Below are positions 13,500-52,629 of a stretch of 64,000 bases of DNA, one piece after another (position 1 is the stretch's first letter; each line of letters opens with the position of its first letter). The stretch lies in assembly GCA_017624275.1 (NCBI GenBank), contig JAGANG010000008.1, positions 1 through 64,000 of the forward strand, written 5' to 3'. The position numbers were made by a program, and so were the translations under genes. The notes under the pieces were generated by a model, which was given only the letters and a program-made list of their open reading frames with translations, did not search any database and had not been told where the DNA came from. This DNA comes from Spirochaetales bacterium. GTDB lineage: Bacteria > Spirochaetota > GWE2-31-10.

Positions 13500-15452
<1,953 letters not shown>

Positions 15453-42600: not shown

Positions 42601-43344
42601 ATGATAAATTACAAGAAAATTATATGTATGTTTATTGCGTTATGGCTGACATTTATATTGGCTGCTGAAGAGCCGGTAAAAATGGTTAAAATACCGGGAA
42701 AAGATTACGAAATGTCAGCTACGGAAATAACTCAAAAAATTTATGAATCTGTCATGGGTGAAAATCCCAGTAAATTTAAAGGAGAAAACCTTCCCGTAGA
42801 AACAGTAAGTTGGTATGATGCGATATATTTTTGCAACAAACTAAGCGTAAAATACGGTTACACGCCTGTATATTCAGTGGACGGAACTAAAGATGTAACA
42901 AAATGGAAATACACACCGCACCATAAAAATATAATAAACGGAAAAATTACTCAAAATATCTCTGCCGACGGATTCAGATTACCTACAATGGACGAATGGG
43001 AATATGCTGCTAACGGCGGACATGACTACAAATACGCCGGCAGTGACAATATAGACGAAGTCGCTTGGTATAGCGGGAACAGCCATAACACCTCACATCC
43101 TGTAGCACAGAAAAAAGCTAACGGTTACGGATTGTACGATATGACCGGCAATGTGTGGGAATGGTGTTGGAATTCTTATTATAATGACGACGATAATTAT
43201 CTGCGTGGCGGTAGTTGGGATGTGACAGTGTACCTTTGCCATGTATACCTTAGAAAATCAAGCTATGCTTATTCCTGCGACTACGACTTCGGTATTCGTG
43301 TGGTACGTACGGCTACTCCTCGGTTATTGAACTTGGTAAAATGA
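42601..43344 (+). CDS. Exported FGE-fold (sulfatase-modifying-factor-like) protein with possible DGR variable region
   Basis: A 247-residue protein with an N-terminal signal peptide (MINYKKIICMFIALWLTFIL...). Then come hallmarks of the FGE/SUMF1 C-type-lectin fold: EITQKIYESVMGENPSKF, LPVETVSWYDAIYFCNKLS, GFRLPTMDEWEYAA, GLYDMTGNVWEWCW and YLRGGSWD...FGIRVVRT. No sulfatase is nearby and the active-site cysteines of true FGE are not evident, so a binding role is more likely. Between RGGSW and the final GIRVVRT (43219-43290), where homologues are rich in Asn and Tyr, most codons end in C or T; the last ten all do. That is the signature of a DGR variable repeat. A reverse transcriptase and template repeat are not in the window. 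Confidence 0.82.
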   Translation: MINYKKIICMFIALWLTFILAAEEPVKMVKIPGKDYEMSATEITQKIYESVMGENPSKFKGENLPVETVSWYDAIYFCNKLSVKYGYTPVYSVDGTKDVTKWKYTPHHKNIINGKITQNISADGFRLPTMDEWEYAANGGHDYKYAGSDNIDEVAWYSGNSHNTSHPVAQKKANGYGLYDMTGNVWEWCWNSYYNDDDNYLRGGSWDVTVYLCHVYLRKSSYAYSCDYDFGIRVVRTATPRLLNLVK

Positions 43345-43460
43345 ACTGTCGATAAAATGTTATGCTGAATTTATTTTCAGAGCCTTAAATAGAAAAAAGT
43401 TGTTTAAATATTAAATAACTAAGTTCGCATTCTAGATTAAAATCAAAATTTATCATCTAT

Positions 43461-43770: not shown

Positions 43771-44043
43771 GAAGCGTTCTTTTCTTTTAGGGGTATAAGG
43801 GGAACTTTTCTTTTTATCGCAAAAAAGAAAAGCTCCCCTTAAAACTCCGTTGTTTTCTGAACAACAAAAACGCTTCAATGCCGGCTCTGCCGGCAAAAAA
43901 AGCCCCAAACCTTGCAAAGGTTTAAAAAAACTTTGAACCAAAGTTGCATTTCAAGGCGGACTCGTCCGCAGAACCGATTAAAACCCAAAATGGTTTTAAA
44001 AAAGCTTTGAACAAAGCTTTATCCCCGTGCCGGCTTGCCCGGC
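43771..44043. repeat. Array of nine short hairpins
   Basis: Consecutive unrelated inverted repeats separated by A-rich gaps: 43797-43840 (AAGGGGA stem), 43849-43865 (GTTGTT), 43880-43894 (GCCGGC), 43907-43923 (AAACCTT), 43929-43945 (AACTTTG), 43956-43969 (GCGGAC), 43980-43997 (AAAACC), 44001-44020 (AAAGCTTTG) and 44029-44043 (GCCGG). GAAGCGTT at 43771 and AACGCTTC at 43869 also pair and enclose the first two. No ORF is supported in this stretch. Confidence 0.8.
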
Positions 44044-44114: not shown

Positions 44115-47100
44115 CTAAAAAGCATTATACGTTGTTGTACCATTATAAGATATATCCTCTGATTTATTATGAGCCGTATCAAAATTAGGTGATGCCCCAG
44201 CTGGCATTCGGGCAACTTTAAATCCTGTACATCCTGACGGTAACACAAAAGTTGCTGACGTCGAAGATTTCTTAGTCACATTTACCCATTTACCGCTAAC
44301 ACTACCGCCCCATACCCAAACATAAAGAACTGCACTGTCGTTCCATACCCAATCAGGAACTGTCAAAGTAATAGTTACACCGCTACCGGTATTTCCGCTG
44401 TCACCTGACGAACCACCGCCGTCTACTTCTGGTGCATTAATATAATCACAACTACCCGGTTTGGTTACTTCATTTTCACTTCCAATCCATCTATTATCAG
44501 TTTTATCATCATGGTATGCATTAGGATCATATTCTTTCCATTGGAATGACTTCAAAATATGCCAAGTTACCCAACAAGAACTTCCGCCTTGAGCCGTAGA
44601 TAAAATGTCATACCAACTTGCTGGAAACTCTGTAGTAGCCGATACTCCTCCGGTACTGTCGGAACCTCGTACATAATGAGAACTTCCAAGTTTGATTACA
44701 GTTTTATATGCCAATTCTTTGTATACTTCTCCGCCGGTCAAACCGTCTTTGGTAGTTTTTGCCCATAGTTTAAAAATTGCACCGTCTTGGTCATTAGTGA
44801 CTTTTAATGTTTCCTCTGATGAATAAGAAGCAAAACTTGTCGGATTTTTTACTTTATCTACTGAATTGCTGTCACTATTTACCGGATTGTTACTTTGTGC
44901 AAAATACAATTCAGCATCATGCATTTCACTGCTGACTTTTACACCTGTAGTATACGGCTGATTACCAGGTCCTTGTCCTGATTTTTTATTGATACGTATC
45001 ACCGGCGTAGCTGTAGGTCCGGTTTCAAATTGAACATTACTTCCGGATTCTTCAGCACATTCGTTTCCGACCATATCCATGAATGTACCTTCGGTAAATG
45101 TCACTTTGTAGATGATACCTTTTTGTAACTTAGACGGAAGTTGTATCGTTACGACAGAAGTTGCATTAGTTGATGAATTTTTACCTATCGTTACAAGTCC
45201 GCTGTTTACGTCAATCGTAGTTACATTATATTCTTTATCAGCAAAGTAATTATAAACTGCCTTTTGTGTTGAATCAGTAATACCACTTGCACTTGCATAA
45301 GCACCGTGGTCAATATCGTATTTCAACACATATTTCGCATTTGTATCCGGTTCTGTACCGTTGTTATTCACCGTACCGATACATCGCTGAATATACCAAT
45401 TGCTGATTTTAGCCTTGTGTGTGTTGTAGTCGTCTACTTCCATCACGGCAGGGTAACTTTTGTAAACACGTTCAATTTTGATACTTCCGCTTCCCTTGCT
45501 GACACCTTCGTTAAAATTCAAAACTATATTCGAATCTGTCGCAGTGTCTTGAAGTATAGTATTCAAAGTTCCGGTCTTTGTACTGCCTGAATGAGCCGTC
45601 ATAGAAAAACCGTTTATTACCGGAGCGGTTGTATCTATTTTGATATCCTTACCGGCAAAGTTCGCAAAATCATCATTTAAAATTGTTATGTTATTACCGG
45701 CAATATCGGTTATACTTCCACTTACACTCTCTGCCTCAAGTCTAATAGTATCATGTCCGCTCAATGCAGTATATGTAGCTGTCGCAGTATTGCTGTCTGT
45801 TATATTATCGAATGTTACCATTGCCTCGGTATTCAAAGTAACCGTTATGTTTCCGGTTACATTTTCAGTAAATTCTGCAGTAATAGTAAATTTATCGCCG
45901 TTTTTGTACGATCCGCTGCCGGCTGTAGTACTGATACTCTTGATTGCCGGCGGTGCAGTATCTACTATTATTTCTATCGCATCTGCCCACAGTGACTTAT
46001 TTCCTGCAATATCTACCTGATATGCAGTAATAGGATGTCGTCCCTCTGTCGTAGGTGTAGAGAAAGATTGTCCCTGTTGAGAATTTGCACCTCCGTCAAC
46101 GGAATAATAGAATGTAGCACCGGCTTCACCTTTCAAAGTTACTTCTTTTGCAGCATTATAAATTTTGCCGACAGAGATTCCGCCCAATGTCGGAGCTACA
46201 CATACAGTATCAATCTCGATATTTCTGCTGTCATGTTTCAAAGTCGTTGCGTCAGCTAATCCGGCACTCAAAGTATTTCCTGCAATATCTTGGATATTAT
46301 TCGGATAAATATTTGCCGTAATACCCAAATCAGTCTTATCATCACCGCCGGCTACAGTATAAGTATAGTAAAGTGTCTTTTTGTCGTCACTTGTTCCTGT
46401 ATAAACAGCCTTTTTATTATTATTTAGTGTTACATTCGAGTCTCCGCTGATTGTTACGGCTTCATCAAACGCTACAGCAATTTCTACACTGTCGCCTGCA
46501 TTTAGGTAATTCTTTGAATCTATTACCGGTGTTCCTCCGAGACTCTTGACTGTATATCCTGTTAATTTCGGAGCTGCTGTATCGATACTGATTACATTAC
46601 TTGTTTTCGGAAGGTTAGTCGCCGTGATAGTTCCGTTTACCACTCCTGCACTAACAGAGCCGTCTACACCCACAAATGAAGTAACTAAAGCACCTGTAGC
46701 ACTGTCAATAATAGTACCGGCAAAGTTTTTTACATAAAGAGCAGTTACATCATCCCCGTCTTCTGTAGTGTAATTTACTGTATAAACACTCTTACCGTCC
46801 GGTTTAAATGTAATCGGTTTATTATTACTCAATGTTAATGTAACATTACTGTTACTTTTGATTGCCTTGTGAAATTCCAATGTCAACGGAATCAATACTC
46901 CGGCTTTGTATACACCGCTCGGTTTTGTAGTAGTGATAGATTTCAATCCTGTAGGACGCAAATCTACTACTACTGTTTTCATTTGAGATAAACTCGATAC
47001 GTTTCCGGCAATATCTGTTTGTTTTGCCAATACATTAAAAGTATTAAGATTGTTATTACCTTCTTTCGGCAAAGTTATTGCACCTGTATATGTCTCGTAA

Positions 47101-50100
47101 CTACCGCCGGCATCCAATGAAAACTCTATCATTGCATTTCCTTCTGTTCCGCCGATTGTCATTCCCACAGATTGTGTAAATGAAGACGCATTCGAATTTC
47201 CGGCTATAGATACAGTTGGTGTAGCAGGCTCTGTAGTATCAATCACGATATTTTTGCTGTTATATTTCAATATCGTTTCACTTAATCCGGCATTCAATGT
47301 ATTACCGGCATCATCCTGAATATTTGTCGGATAAACATTCTGCAAAATACTCAAAGGACTTGCTGTTCCTGCGACAACTTTGTATTCATAAATCAATGTT
47401 TTATCATCATCATCAACATTTGGTAAATACACAGCATTTTCACCACTGTTCAACGACAACACAGACGTTCCTACGACACCCACCTTTTCGCTGAAAGTTA
47501 CTTTTACTTTCACCGTATCACCGGCATTCAAATAATAGTTACCATCAGTGTCAATGTGCATTTCGTCACTGACACTTTCTACTGAATAACTACTTATTGT
47601 AGGGGCATTCGTATCAATAAGGATTTCATTTCCGCTAAAGTTATCAACCAAATTTGCAAAAGAAGCAGAAATCTTATTATCTACAGTTGTATTGCTTTCA
47701 TCCGTAAACGTTCCGCTTATTCCCTTTTCTTTATTAACTTTCAAGTATCCATTTTTTGTATCCTCTCCGGAAGCGATTGTATAAACAGTCTGATGACTGA
47801 TTGCCAAAGTATTGGTATTTGCAAATTCTAATACTTTGCCATTGTTTAAAGTTAGCTTCAATCCGCTGAACTTAACTTTCTTTGTAAAAAGCAACGTAAC
47901 AGGTATCTCATCGCCGGCTTTGTACACACCGTTTACCTTTGTAGTAGTAATTTTTGAGATTCCCATTTCTTGCAAATCTACGGTAACTGTTATTTTATCA
48001 GAAGGTTTAGACATATTTCCGGCTTTGTCTGTTTGTTTTGCCATTATATAGAAAGTCTTTTTACTTCCCGTATCTCCTAAAACTTTTGATATTCCGACGA
48101 AATAATCAGCTCCGCCGTTGATTGAATATTCAATCTTTTCACCATTACCTTCTCCGCTGATTTCCATTGTTAATTGTTCGGAAACGTTGCCAATGTTTGT
48201 AGCTACCTTATATCCCCCAGCATCTTTAAATGTCACGGAAGGAGCATCCGGAGTTATCGTATCAATCACGATTGTCTTTTCGTTATGTTTCAAAGTCGTC
48301 GATTCTGCCGGTTTGGTTTCAAATTTATTTCCTGCAATATCCTGAACATTGTTTGGAATAACCTTTTCGGCAATACACAAACTTGCACTGTTTTCACCGC
48401 TGGCTACGGTATAAGTATAGTAAAGCGTTCTTCTGTCACTGCTTGTACCCACGTATGAAGCTGATTTTCCATGACTTAGTTCAATCTTTGAATCACCGCT
48501 GATCATTACCGGTTCTTCAAAAACTGCCGCAATTTTTACAGTATCACCTGCATTCAAATAATAGTTACCATCAGTGTCAATGTGCATTTCGTCACTGATA
48601 CTTTCTATTTGGTATCCGTCAAACTTAGGAGCTGTTTTATCAATTTGAATATTTTTTGTTTTAAAATCATCTGAAAATCCTTCCCCCATAACAAGCTTGC
48701 AATCATCGCCTTCCACTGCAACTTTGTTACCGGCTGTATCGGTGAAGATTCCTCCGGTGATTTCTTTTATCTGCAATTTTTTAACATAACCGATAGGACT
48801 GACATCATTAATATCGCTGTCGCCGGTTCCTACGGAGTAAGTTCCTTTGTGCATTGCGGAATATGCATTACTCGACACAACAAATGTAACATAGCCATTG
48901 TTATTAAAAGTCAATTTAATATCGCCGTTACCGCTTTTTACCGCATTTACTTTTTTACTGAATGTCAAAGTTACGGGTATTTCCGTACCTGCTTTATATA
49001 ATCCGTTAATCGCAGTAGTAGTAATGCTTGAAAGTAACGGCACACCTTTGTCAACCTTAAAAGTCGCAGATGATACATCTGATATATTGCCTGCATAGTC
49101 TACAAGCTGAGCTTTTACAGTCCAGTCATGCTCTGCATTATCTGTATTTGTAGTATAACAGTTCATATAATCCCAATTCTGCACCGTCCTTCCGGGAATA
49201 GAAGCATACATTTTTACTTTTGATGTGACTTCTCCGTCTGCCGGTTTTGGAGTAATTGTAATATTTTCTATATAACCTGTAGCTTTTCCGGTATACACAT
49301 ATCCCATTGCTCGTTGATTATTATCAGGGTTAAAGCCGTCTACATCTCCGTCCTTATCTGTGAAAATAAATGTCGGAGCATCCGGCTTTGTTGTATCGAT
49401 AATAATCGAAATCTCTTCTGTACCATTAGAAATTGCTTTTTTTAATGCAACCTCTTCTCCGATTGTATTTTTTCCCTCTTCTGTACTGCCGACAACTTTG
49501 TTTCCGGCTTCATCCGTCACTTTACCTACAAAAGCATCGCAATGTAAATTTTTGTCGGCTGTATCATCTCCTGCCGCTACGGTATAAACAAAATACAAAA
49601 TACTAGAACCTGCACCGGTTTTGTATTGTGCTCGTACCGGTTTACCATCCTTAGTCATATTCAATTCCAAATACGGTTGTTCATCTCCCAATACAACAGT
49701 CTCATTAAATCTTGCTTCTAATGTGACTGTCTTACCTGCATTTAGATAATAATTTTTACCATTCTTTTCATAAGGCTCAATACTCACATCTGAAACGTAA
49801 ACACCATCAAATATAGGAGCCTTAGTATCAATTTTTATTTTTAGTTCAGCCAAACTGCCGGATTCGGTATCTTTCGGAAATTTTTTAAAATCCATTTCAT
49901 TACCAGCATTATCTTTTACTGTTTCAGTATCACTAAATGCATAGAACGGAACATAAATATCCAGAAACTGATTTTCAGTATTATCCCCTTCTTTTACCGT
50001 ATACAAAAATTCCAACGTATCAGAATTTTTAACTTCTTTTTCCGCTGCTACAAAAAGGTCGGTATTAGTTGCATCATTCCCGCGACTGTTCAATAATATT

Positions 50101-52604
50101 CTGGCTCGTCCGTTGATAATCTCATTAAATTGAGCTGTGATTCTTATTTCTTTATCGACAGTATAAGCCCCCTGACCCACATCTGCACTAATCTTATTTA
50201 CAACAGGTTTTTCTGTATCAATAAAAACTCCGCGAGATGAAAGTGACCCGGCTTTCCCCGGTTCTGATAATTTCAACACCGCAGGTACTGACGACACTCC
50301 TTCCCCCAATGCTTTTCCGAATATCTTTGTTTCGTCATCCATTTTTAGACTGCTTTCTGATAAATAATCCAACGGTTCAGCCTTATCACCGGATTGTACC
50401 GTATATTTAAATTTTAATATTTTCTCTTCTTCAAATCCGTCATATACAGCCTTTGGTATTGTTGTTACATCACTTATTGACTTTCCTTTACAATTTAATT
50501 CTAAATAGATAGATTCCTTATTACCTTTTATTTCTATTTCACGGTTCATTGTCACTGAAAAATGCAATACTTTATTCTCCGAATAATATCCGCCGGGTTC
50601 ATCTATACTAACAGAAACGACTTGAGGACTGTTGTCATCTACTTTTACATAAACACTCGACTGGCTGATATTGCCGAAACTGTCTGAAGCTTTTACTATG
50701 ATTCGCTGGTAACTTCCGCCGAGCTCGGTCAATTTGTCCGATGTCACACTCCATGTTCCGTCCGGAGCTAAACACTTATTCTGCAATAAATCATACACTC
50801 CCGGATTTCCGTTCGAATCGGTATATTCGATTGTCAAAGAAGTAATTCCTGATTGTGCGTCACTACATTTTCCTTCTATTGTAAAATGCTCCCCACCGAC
50901 ATTGCGGACATTGTCATTGTCTTTAGGTGAATCAATACTCAAAACAGGTTCATTGAATTCTTTCGGAATGGTAAATGTTCCTACTGCATAATTTCCTGAT
51001 TTGCTTATAGTGCAATAGTACATTTTTTTGTAATTAAAAACCTTGTTTCCATTTTCATCGATAAAATCATTTACCGGCAATTCACATGACCAATCCAATT
51101 TGACTGTATTATTTTCTGCAATATTTTCAAAATCTTTTAAATCTACAATCCAGTATTTTATACCGTTTTGATAACCGTTTTCCGCTATATCCCATTTAGC
51201 CACTTTCAACTCTGTAGCTTTTTCTTCAGATGCATTCGGATCCCACGCCAGAAGCACTTTTTCTATTCCGGCAGCGTCACGAGTAGTTGCTTCGACTATA
51301 AACGCCGGATTTTGGTCAGTAATATACGCCGTAGTCGGATATTCTTCAAAAGCTTTGACTTCTGTAGTAGGAGCACTTTCGTCAATTACCTGAAACCCGA
51401 TAGAATGCTCATCATCCCAACCGGAAGTTTCAGTCCACAAGTCGCTGCCGTTACCGTAAGACGTAACTCCAGAAGAATCTTTGAGTCGATAATACAAACG
51501 ATATCTACCCTGATTAGTCGGAGCTACCAAGTCCCACATTGTACAACCGGTTTCCCCGAAAGACGCTTTTGTAACAGTTTCGTGTTTAACCATTTCATCG
51601 TAATCTGTATTTACAATGTAGAATTCCATCATTTCCAAGCTGTCATCATCATAAGCAGTACCGGAAATCTGAGCTCCCGCACGAAGTTTGTTTTTTTCCT
51701 GCTGCATTTCAAGATTATCTGCTGTTTCCAATGAAGAAACTTCTATCCACGGGCGGTCTGCTTCCTGATACAAACAAATAAAACCAAGTTGTGAATCGGA
51801 AGAGGCTGTTTTATTGCCGGCTTTATCCGTAACTGCCACCGCCATTCTTAGATAGTGTTTTTCTGTCGGAGAAAGCTCTGAAAGTTTATTTATATATATT
51901 TCATTTTCTATAGGCTCTTGCTCAGAATCTACTGTCACAGTCCAATTGTACAAAGAACCTTCCACCATCAATTCGCCGGCTTTTCTTCCTAAGTACTTAG
52001 AATCAAATGTCAATGAGTAAACACATTCGTTTTCTTTGAAAAGTTGTAACGTGATTTCTTTCAACGGATAATTATCTTTTATCTGTCCTTGTATCGAAAA
52101 AGTTTTGTTTTTAAAATATTCAATGTAAGCATATTGACGATAATCCAATCCCTCAAGTGTTTCTTGAGGTTTCAAGTTAGGCTTTTGGATTTTTATTTCG
52201 CTTTCTTCATTATCTACTGTCAAAACAATAGTTTTTGATGAATTTTCAGATTGATTGCCGGCTTTGTCGTAAGCTGTAACAGTGATTGTATATTCACCGG
52301 TTTTCAAATCTTTAAATTCATAACTCCATTGCGTTCCGGCAACAACGGCAGTAGGCGGATTTTCTTTATCCGAAACTCTTTCACCGTTACAAAATACGCT
52401 CAATTCTACTTTTGTGACTTTTATATTATCAGACACCGTTCCGGCTACAAAAAAGCTTCCTCTTTGGTATGCCAGATTGTCAGGTGTTGTAATATTTATT
52501 TCCGGTGCGGAAATATCGGGAGCAGTACCTCCTCCTACAAACATATTTGATGTATCACAAGACCAGATACTGAATATCAAAAATAAAATATATAATTGTT
52601 TCAT
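44115..52604 (-). CDS. Giant multi-Ig-like lipoprotein A
   Basis: About 2,829 residues. The signal peptide MKQLYILFLIFSIWSC gives a lipidated Cys16. After several N-terminal Ig-like modules (PEINITTPDNLAYQRGSFFV), about 11 bacterial Ig-like modules follow. Each has the core 'G-x-YkaGdeipvtltFxkkV', a 'YTVasGdd' strand and an 'IDTtaP' linker; they alternate with 'qTDkAGNxS' modules. A 1,026-bp super-repeat occurs three times. The C-terminus ends in a beta-sandwich-like segment (SAVLYVWVWGG...KWVNVTKKS) that resembles starch-binding modules. Probably a surface adhesin or filament. Alternative ATG three codons earlier lies too near the AGGA site. Second gene of a two-gene operon. Confidence 0.85.
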   Translation of the reverse strand: MKQLYILFLIFSIWSCDTSNMFVGGGTAPDISAPEINITTPDNLAYQRGSFFVAGTVSDNIKVTKVELSVFCNGERVSDKENPPTAVVAGTQWSYEFKDLKTGEYTITVTAYDKAGNQSENSSKTIVLTVDNEESEIKIQKPNLKPQETLEGLDYRQYAYIEYFKNKTFSIQGQIKDNYPLKEITLQLFKENECVYSLTFDSKYLGRKAGELMVEGSLYNWTVTVDSEQEPIENEIYINKLSELSPTEKHYLRMAVAVTDKAGNKTASSDSQLGFICLYQEADRPWIEVSSLETADNLEMQQEKNKLRAGAQISGTAYDDDSLEMMEFYIVNTDYDEMVKHETVTKASFGETGCTMWDLVAPTNQGRYRLYYRLKDSSGVTSYGNGSDLWTETSGWDDEHSIGFQVIDESAPTTEVKAFEEYPTTAYITDQNPAFIVEATTRDAAGIEKVLLAWDPNASEEKATELKVAKWDIAENGYQNGIKYWIVDLKDFENIAENNTVKLDWSCELPVNDFIDENGNKVFNYKKMYYCTISKSGNYAVGTFTIPKEFNEPVLSIDSPKDNDNVRNVGGEHFTIEGKCSDAQSGITSLTIEYTDSNGNPGVYDLLQNKCLAPDGTWSVTSDKLTELGGSYQRIIVKASDSFGNISQSSVYVKVDDNSPQVVSVSIDEPGGYYSENKVLHFSVTMNREIEIKGNKESIYLELNCKGKSISDVTTIPKAVYDGFEEEKILKFKYTVQSGDKAEPLDYLSESSLKMDDETKIFGKALGEGVSSVPAVLKLSEPGKAGSLSSRGVFIDTEKPVVNKISADVGQGAYTVDKEIRITAQFNEIINGRARILLNSRGNDATNTDLFVAAEKEVKNSDTLEFLYTVKEGDNTENQFLDIYVPFYAFSDTETVKDNAGNEMDFKKFPKDTESGSLAELKIKIDTKAPIFDGVYVSDVSIEPYEKNGKNYYLNAGKTVTLEARFNETVVLGDEQPYLELNMTKDGKPVRAQYKTGAGSSILYFVYTVAAGDDTADKNLHCDAFVGKVTDEAGNKVVGSTEEGKNTIGEEVALKKAISNGTEEISIIIDTTKPDAPTFIFTDKDGDVDGFNPDNNQRAMGYVYTGKATGYIENITITPKPADGEVTSKVKMYASIPGRTVQNWDYMNCYTTNTDNAEHDWTVKAQLVDYAGNISDVSSATFKVDKGVPLLSSITTTAINGLYKAGTEIPVTLTFSKKVNAVKSGNGDIKLTFNNNGYVTFVVSSNAYSAMHKGTYSVGTGDSDINDVSPIGYVKKLQIKEITGGIFTDTAGNKVAVEGDDCKLVMGEGFSDDFKTKNIQIDKTAPKFDGYQIESISDEMHIDTDGNYYLNAGDTVKIAAVFEEPVMISGDSKIELSHGKSASYVGTSSDRRTLYYTYTVASGENSASLCIAEKVIPNNVQDIAGNKFETKPAESTTLKHNEKTIVIDTITPDAPSVTFKDAGGYKVATNIGNVSEQLTMEISGEGNGEKIEYSINGGADYFVGISKVLGDTGSKKTFYIMAKQTDKAGNMSKPSDKITVTVDLQEMGISKITTTKVNGVYKAGDEIPVTLLFTKKVKFSGLKLTLNNGKVLEFANTNTLAISHQTVYTIASGEDTKNGYLKVNKEKGISGTFTDESNTTVDNKISASFANLVDNFSGNEILIDTNAPTISSYSVESVSDEMHIDTDGNYYLNAGDTVKVKVTFSEKVGVVGTSVLSLNSGENAVYLPNVDDDDKTLIYEYKVVAGTASPLSILQNVYPTNIQDDAGNTLNAGLSETILKYNSKNIVIDTTEPATPTVSIAGNSNASSFTQSVGMTIGGTEGNAMIEFSLDAGGSYETYTGAITLPKEGNNNLNTFNVLAKQTDIAGNVSSLSQMKTVVVDLRPTGLKSITTTKPSGVYKAGVLIPLTLEFHKAIKSNSNVTLTLSNNKPITFKPDGKSVYTVNYTTEDGDDVTALYVKNFAGTIIDSATGALVTSFVGVDGSVSAGVVNGTITATNLPKTSNVISIDTAAPKLTGYTVKSLGGTPVIDSKNYLNAGDSVEIAVAFDEAVTISGDSNVTLNNNKKAVYTGTSDDKKTLYYTYTVAGGDDKTDLGITANIYPNNIQDIAGNTLSAGLADATTLKHDSRNIEIDTVCVAPTLGGISVGKIYNAAKEVTLKGEAGATFYYSVDGGANSQQGQSFSTPTTEGRHPITAYQVDIAGNKSLWADAIEIIVDTAPPAIKSISTTAGSGSYKNGDKFTITAEFTENVTGNITVTLNTEAMVTFDNITDSNTATATYTALSGHDTIRLEAESVSGSITDIAGNNITILNDDFANFAGKDIKIDTTAPVINGFSMTAHSGSTKTGTLNTILQDTATDSNIVLNFNEGVSKGSGSIKIERVYKSYPAVMEVDDYNTHKAKISNWYIQRCIGTVNNNGTEPDTNAKYVLKYDIDHGAYASASGITDSTQKAVYNYFADKEYNVTTIDVNSGLVTIGKNSSTNATSVVTIQLPSKLQKGIIYKVTFTEGTFMDMVGNECAEESGSNVQFETGPTATPVIRINKKSGQGPGNQPYTTGVKVSSEMHDAELYFAQSNNPVNSDSNSVDKVKNPTSFASYSSEETLKVTNDQDGAIFKLWAKTTKDGLTGGEVYKELAYKTVIKLGSSHYVRGSDSTGGVSATTEFPASWYDILSTAQGGSSCWVTWHILKSFQWKEYDPNAYHDDKTDNRWIGSENEVTKPGSCDYINAPEVDGGGSSGDSGNTGSGVTITLTVPDWVWNDSAVLYVWVWGGSVSGKWVNVTKKSSTSATFVLPSGCTGFKVARMPAGASPNFDTAHNKSEDISYNGTTTYNAF

Positions 52605-52629
52605 TATTATCATTTCCTGCCCCCTTTAC

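Follow-up and report, generated by a model that had tools for sequence, protein, structure and literature searches.

The TvpA-like gene on contig C39

The window, a stretch of 64,000 nucleotides from contig C39 of a Spirochaetales assembly, carries on its forward strand a gene for a protein of 247 amino acids with the fold of formylglycine-generating enzymes (FGE). Its stop codon ends at 43344. The following features were assigned to the gene and its 3' flank:

42601..43344, +: gene for a TvpA-like protein of the FGE fold (C-type-lectin fold), 247 aa, assigned by PF03781, 2Y3C, Foldseek and identity to paralogs
42601..42666, +: probable N-terminal secretion signal MINYKKIICMFIALWLTFILAA without a lipobox cysteine at its end, from sequence reading, with a presumed cleavage site
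43204..43218, +: conserved RGGSW, start of the variable-region homology by codon alignment to the template
43219..43290, +: variable-region homolog DVTVYLCHVYLRKSSYAYSCDYDF, diverged from the C89 template both at adenines and at other bases
43291-43311, +: GIRVVRT, from sequence reading
43291..43310, +: conserved 3'-terminal part of the variable-region homolog (IMH-like position), sharing 17/20 bases with the template
43306..43425, +: 3' flank without a stem-loop, DNA fold z = +0.1

The protein carries a single FGE-sulfatase domain (PF03781, E 1.2e-32), and its nearest solved relative by sequence is 2Y3C, the variable protein 1 (TvpA) of Treponema denticola (E 6e-35). When an AlphaFold model with a mean pLDDT of 90.5 was submitted to Foldseek, 2Y3C was again the top match (E 3.6e-22). 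The gene product is a member of the TvpA-like FGE-fold family, as the first-pass annotation, made from the sequence alone, had proposed. It shares with TvpA the fold and the C-terminal placement of the variable block, but identity over the fold alignment is 32% and the lipobox cysteine after the signal is absent. Residues 4-19 form a hydrophobic N-terminal helix in the model, and the protein is probably secreted and presumably binds a ligand.

Formylglycine-generating enzymes carry two active-site cysteines after RGGS(Y/W). The window protein has the domain of SUMF1/FGE, but in the corresponding residues, RGGSW-DVTVYLC, valine occupies the first cysteine position and only the second is cysteine. 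Enzymatic activity is therefore unlikely as judged from these residues.

In one genome of the same genus, the FGE gene is absent from this place. That genome retains ychF (90% identical) and, after it, the small ORF of zinc-ribbon-like appearance, but a different gene comes next. We therefore regard the FGE gene as an accessory gene at this locus. The adjoining ORF on the minus strand (44115-52613) encodes a protein of 2832 amino acids that has a signal at its N-terminus and numerous repeated domains of Ig-like appearance. An intergenic inverted repeat lies at 43796-43841 and has 20-base arms (95% complementary) and a 6-base loop. A search of the gene region against Rfam returned nothing.

A complete diversity-generating retroelement on contig C89

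The first-pass annotation had suggested that the end of the gene is a variable region (VR) diversified in trans by a diversity-generating retroelement (DGR), and had noted that neither a reverse transcriptase (RT) nor a template lies in the window. The latter was borne out. The genome search that it had recommended uncovered a complete DGR and two remote targets. The assembly comprises 2.58 Mb in 91 contigs and is 84% complete; its sole detectable RT and its sole detectable template are both located on contig C89:

C89:8072-11650 (L001): DGR cassette; within L001, VR 167-313, HRDC ORF 397-990, template 1014-1160, RT 1291-2238

Along the strand, a gene for an FGE-fold target is followed by an ORF with an HRDC domain, a template of 147 bases and the RT gene. 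The RT (315 aa, RVT_1) has the motifs IGNLTSQ and YMDD, the former of which conforms to (I/V/L)GxxxSQ, the motif defined for RTs of the DGR type (PMC3521204). Template and cognate VR differ at 21/43 adenines and at 0/104 other bases, such that the differences are confined to A. An accessory protein of the Avd or HRDC kind is provided by the ORF between VR and template (PF00570, E 4.6e-16). The C89 locus is a complete DGR.

We considered whether C89 might be a contaminant, which composition does not support. Tetranucleotide profiles of sampled C39 stretches correlated at 0.89-0.93 with those of C89, C12 and C2 and at 0.59-0.80 with those of the other organisms compared, so that the four contigs very probably belong to one genome.

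An arrangement of this kind is known from T. denticola, in which one RT and one template serve several dispersed FGE-fold targets with the help of an HRDC accessory protein (PMC4891356; for the TvpA DGR, Le Coq and Ghosh, 2011, as cited therein). The two systems differ in a minor point of layout, the HRDC gene being situated between template and RT in T. denticola but between VR and template on C89.

Two remote targets were overwritten from the C89 template lineage

Searching the assembly with the template DNA revealed two further FGE genes:

C12:35401-35517, minus (L145 / L017): remote FGE target with a template-derived, A-biased tail
C2:910-1061, minus (L146 / L016): remote FGE target with a template-derived, A-biased tail

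When aligned to the template by codons, the C12 tail differs at codon positions 1 and 2 at 0/41 non-A bases and 12/31 adenines, and the C2 tail at 2/41 and 15/31, respectively. Overwriting was assessed by comparing third-codon-position mismatches between tail and template with those between the body of the gene and the body of the C89 gene. For C12, 9/36 third positions differ in the tail and 68/128 in the body (p = 0.004); the values for C2 are 7/36 and 83/142 (p = 3e-5). By this sequence comparison both tails were clearly overwritten in trans from the C89 template lineage. The events do not seem to be recent, because synonymous third-position differences have accumulated since. The variable tail of the C2 gene is internal and is followed by another C-terminal domain.

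These two genes are the nearest relatives of the window gene in the assembly, with protein identities of 71% (C12) and 65% (C2), which identifies the window gene by sequence as a paralog of the DGR targets of this genome.

The window tail does not match the template

Homology of the window tail to DGR variable regions, also proposed from the first, is upheld by the codon alignment and by the 3' end mentioned above. The homology begins at RGGSW, the boundary motif that had been named; the start of 43205 given for the block lies one base late. Against the C89 template, non-A mismatches amount to 42/104 without gaps and 32/106 with gaps, whereas the cognate VR has 0/104. Third positions differ at 19/36 in the window tail and at 1/36 in the cognate VR. 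At third positions the tail agrees with the template (19/36 mismatches) no better than the body agrees with that of the cognate gene (85/142, p = 0.46); being as diverged there as the body, the tail has not been overwritten. The comparison of third codon positions between tail and body thus separates overwritten from retired targets.

With these counts the C89 template was rejected as direct source of the window tail; the proposal that the block is a product of the genome's own DGR acting in trans is not supported. A template with A-specific mismatches to the window tail, the lack of which the annotation itself had named as refuting its proposal, was not found in the assembly. That the gene is a live target of the C89 DGR is very improbable and, for the assembled template, already contradicted by the mismatches at non-A and third positions and by a 3' flank without stem-loop or shared element (see below), even though RT and template reside in the same genome, with binning backed by composition, and the 3' end is nearly that of the template. 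In this disagreement at non-A bases with the template of its own genome the window tail also departs from the T. denticola system.

At codon positions 1 and 2, template adenines are changed at 18/31 and other bases at 8/41 sites of the window tail (p = 8e-4), the latter compared with 0/41 for the C89 VR, 0/41 for C12 and 2/41 for C2. The excess at adenines might be taken as a trace of mutagenesis. FGE tails of unrelated bacteria, used as a control, showed the same or a stronger adenine excess, because the template's Asn codons fall on the face of the fold that varies. We therefore do not accept the excess as proving that the tail was once mutagenized; on its own, an FGE tail with substitutions of adenine-like pattern is no evidence of a DGR.

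The final ten codons before the conserved glycine, AGC TAT GCT TAT TCC TGC GAC TAC GAC TTC, are indeed NNY in 10/10 cases and NNC in the last six, as had been reported. The run had been called odd and attributed to adenine mutagenesis of AAC/AAT codons. In simulations with the amino acids fixed, ten NNY codons in a row occurred with P = 0.24 under window-wide usage and P = 0.42 under the usage of the gene itself, which is unremarkable because Y, C, D and F have NNY codons only. The NNY run mostly follows from the amino acids, and all-NNY codons were discarded as evidence of a DGR. The oddity holds for the last six NNC codons, which are unusual given the amino acids (P = 0.0001 to 0.003); for a run of at least six NNC anywhere in the gene, P was 0.003 to 0.08. 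This run aligns with AAT CGC AAC AAC AAC AAC of the template, and the third bases are equal in 5/6 codons. Opposite the 12 Asn codons of the template, the window protein reads D, L, L, K, S, S, Y, S, D, Y, D and F, with NNY codons in 10/12.

Since the adenine excess is not diagnostic, past mutagenesis of the window tail rests on kinship, by which it is likely. Should the gene be an ordinary paralog with the FGE fold and no history as a DGR target, its loop would vary as a binding face and its likeness to the template would reflect shared ancestry of the fold. The equal excess of A over non-A changes in unrelated FGE tails, the NNY codons expected from the residues and the lack of a stem-loop are all consistent with this explanation. 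It is challenged by the template-derived tails of the closest relatives in the genome, on C12 and C2, whose 3' end the window gene has in common, and by the parallel between the six-NNC run and the AAC run of the template. Relatives in other treponemes likewise argue against it. The closest relatives in public genomes stem mostly from treponemes of herbivore guts and combine bodies about 50-65% identical to that of the window protein with hypervariable tails, several of which adjoin a template and an RT. We consider this explanation unlikely, although it is the strongest of the alternatives.

3' flanks of targets and of the window gene

In phage BPP-1, a hairpin downstream of the VR is needed for efficient homing (PMC3240598). 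Targets that adjoin a template have a stem-loop after the VR, with DNA fold z values of -2.6 to -6.8. DNA folding detected no stem-loop downstream of the window tail (z = +0.1). The 3' flank of the C2 target is also devoid of one, though its tail was overwritten. The missing stem-loop thus serves only as supporting evidence for retirement of the window gene, because the need for a hairpin is known from phage BPP-1 and because of the precedent of C2.

An element of 40 bases, GCAAAATGGCGACGGCAACGGCGAGGAACCGCTACAGCGG, with an exact core of 26 bases, is present in identical form downstream of the VRs on both C89 and C12:

L001 382-421 onward (C89): copy of the element
L145 about 14344-14385, minus (C12): copy of the element

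It is possibly a cis element for homing. Allowing up to 3 mismatches, a 20-base core of this shared element was not found in the window.

In two treponeme genomes (L034, L042), FGE-tail VRs are followed by near-identical branched stem-loops of about 55 bases, which exceed the simple BPP-1 hairpin in size.

Searches for a second template

Searches of the genome with the 3'-end pattern returned five sites only, namely the template, the targets on C89, C12 and C2, and the window gene. No second template was found in the assembly with template DNA, protein, 3'-end pattern or AAY-run pattern, and no second RT in the assembled part. The AAY-run pattern gave 8 matches as compared to 6 in a reversed control, and the C89 template alone looks real. 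The 20-base 3' end of the window tail was not present within 2 mismatches in any of eight other genomes of the order, and viral contigs contained neither a relative nor a copy of the 3' end. Nine treponeme templates were tried on the window tail. That of C89 was the closest; those of the eight other treponeme DGRs were rejected as source, since each fits worse.

These searches bear on the idea that the gene is a live target of a second DGR, with template and RT in the portion of the genome missing from the assembly. The completeness of 84% in 91 contigs leaves room for such a system, and more than one match to RTs of the C89 type is seen in some treponeme genomes. The distance between the window tail and the C89 template is about that seen for tails of other species, and the NNY codons at 10/12 template-Asn positions would fit as well. 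The assembled part, though, yielded neither another RT or template nor an N-rich template-like repeat, and the stem-loop is missing after the window tail. We judge a second DGR improbable, somewhat more so than a paralog that never was a target; were it real, it would act on the window gene in trans with a diverged template of its own, and one FGE paralog family would be split between two independent diversification machines in a cell.

Retirement as the most probable explanation

We infer that the window gene is an old, retired paralog of the DGR targets, which received its tail from a DGR-diversified VR and then left the system, and assign this reading a probability of about 0.6. An ancestral paralog would have been diversified by an older form of the template via A-specific mutagenic retrohoming. 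After gene duplication, the window copy would no longer have matched the template and might also have lost the stem-loop behind its tail, upon which rewriting ceased. The tail would since have drifted at the background rate with the fold kept, and in its fixed form may still bind something. The C89 DGR rewrites its own target and formerly rewrote the two distant FGE genes on C12 and C2, the window gene being spared.

Retirement has a precedent in T. denticola, where leftover targets, as well as targets whose VRs are excessively mutated, were reported (Nimkulrat et al., 2016, PMC4891356). Multi-target templates, HRDC proteins and leftover or over-mutated targets are thus already known from that organism, and the window gene is best filed in this class; the complete DGR with two remote targets found here in a spirochaete-like genome is of the same kind.

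Another treponeme protein (L051, 2231-3156) has tandem FGE domains with two variable tails that are unlike each other, and hence presents duplicated targets inside a single gene.
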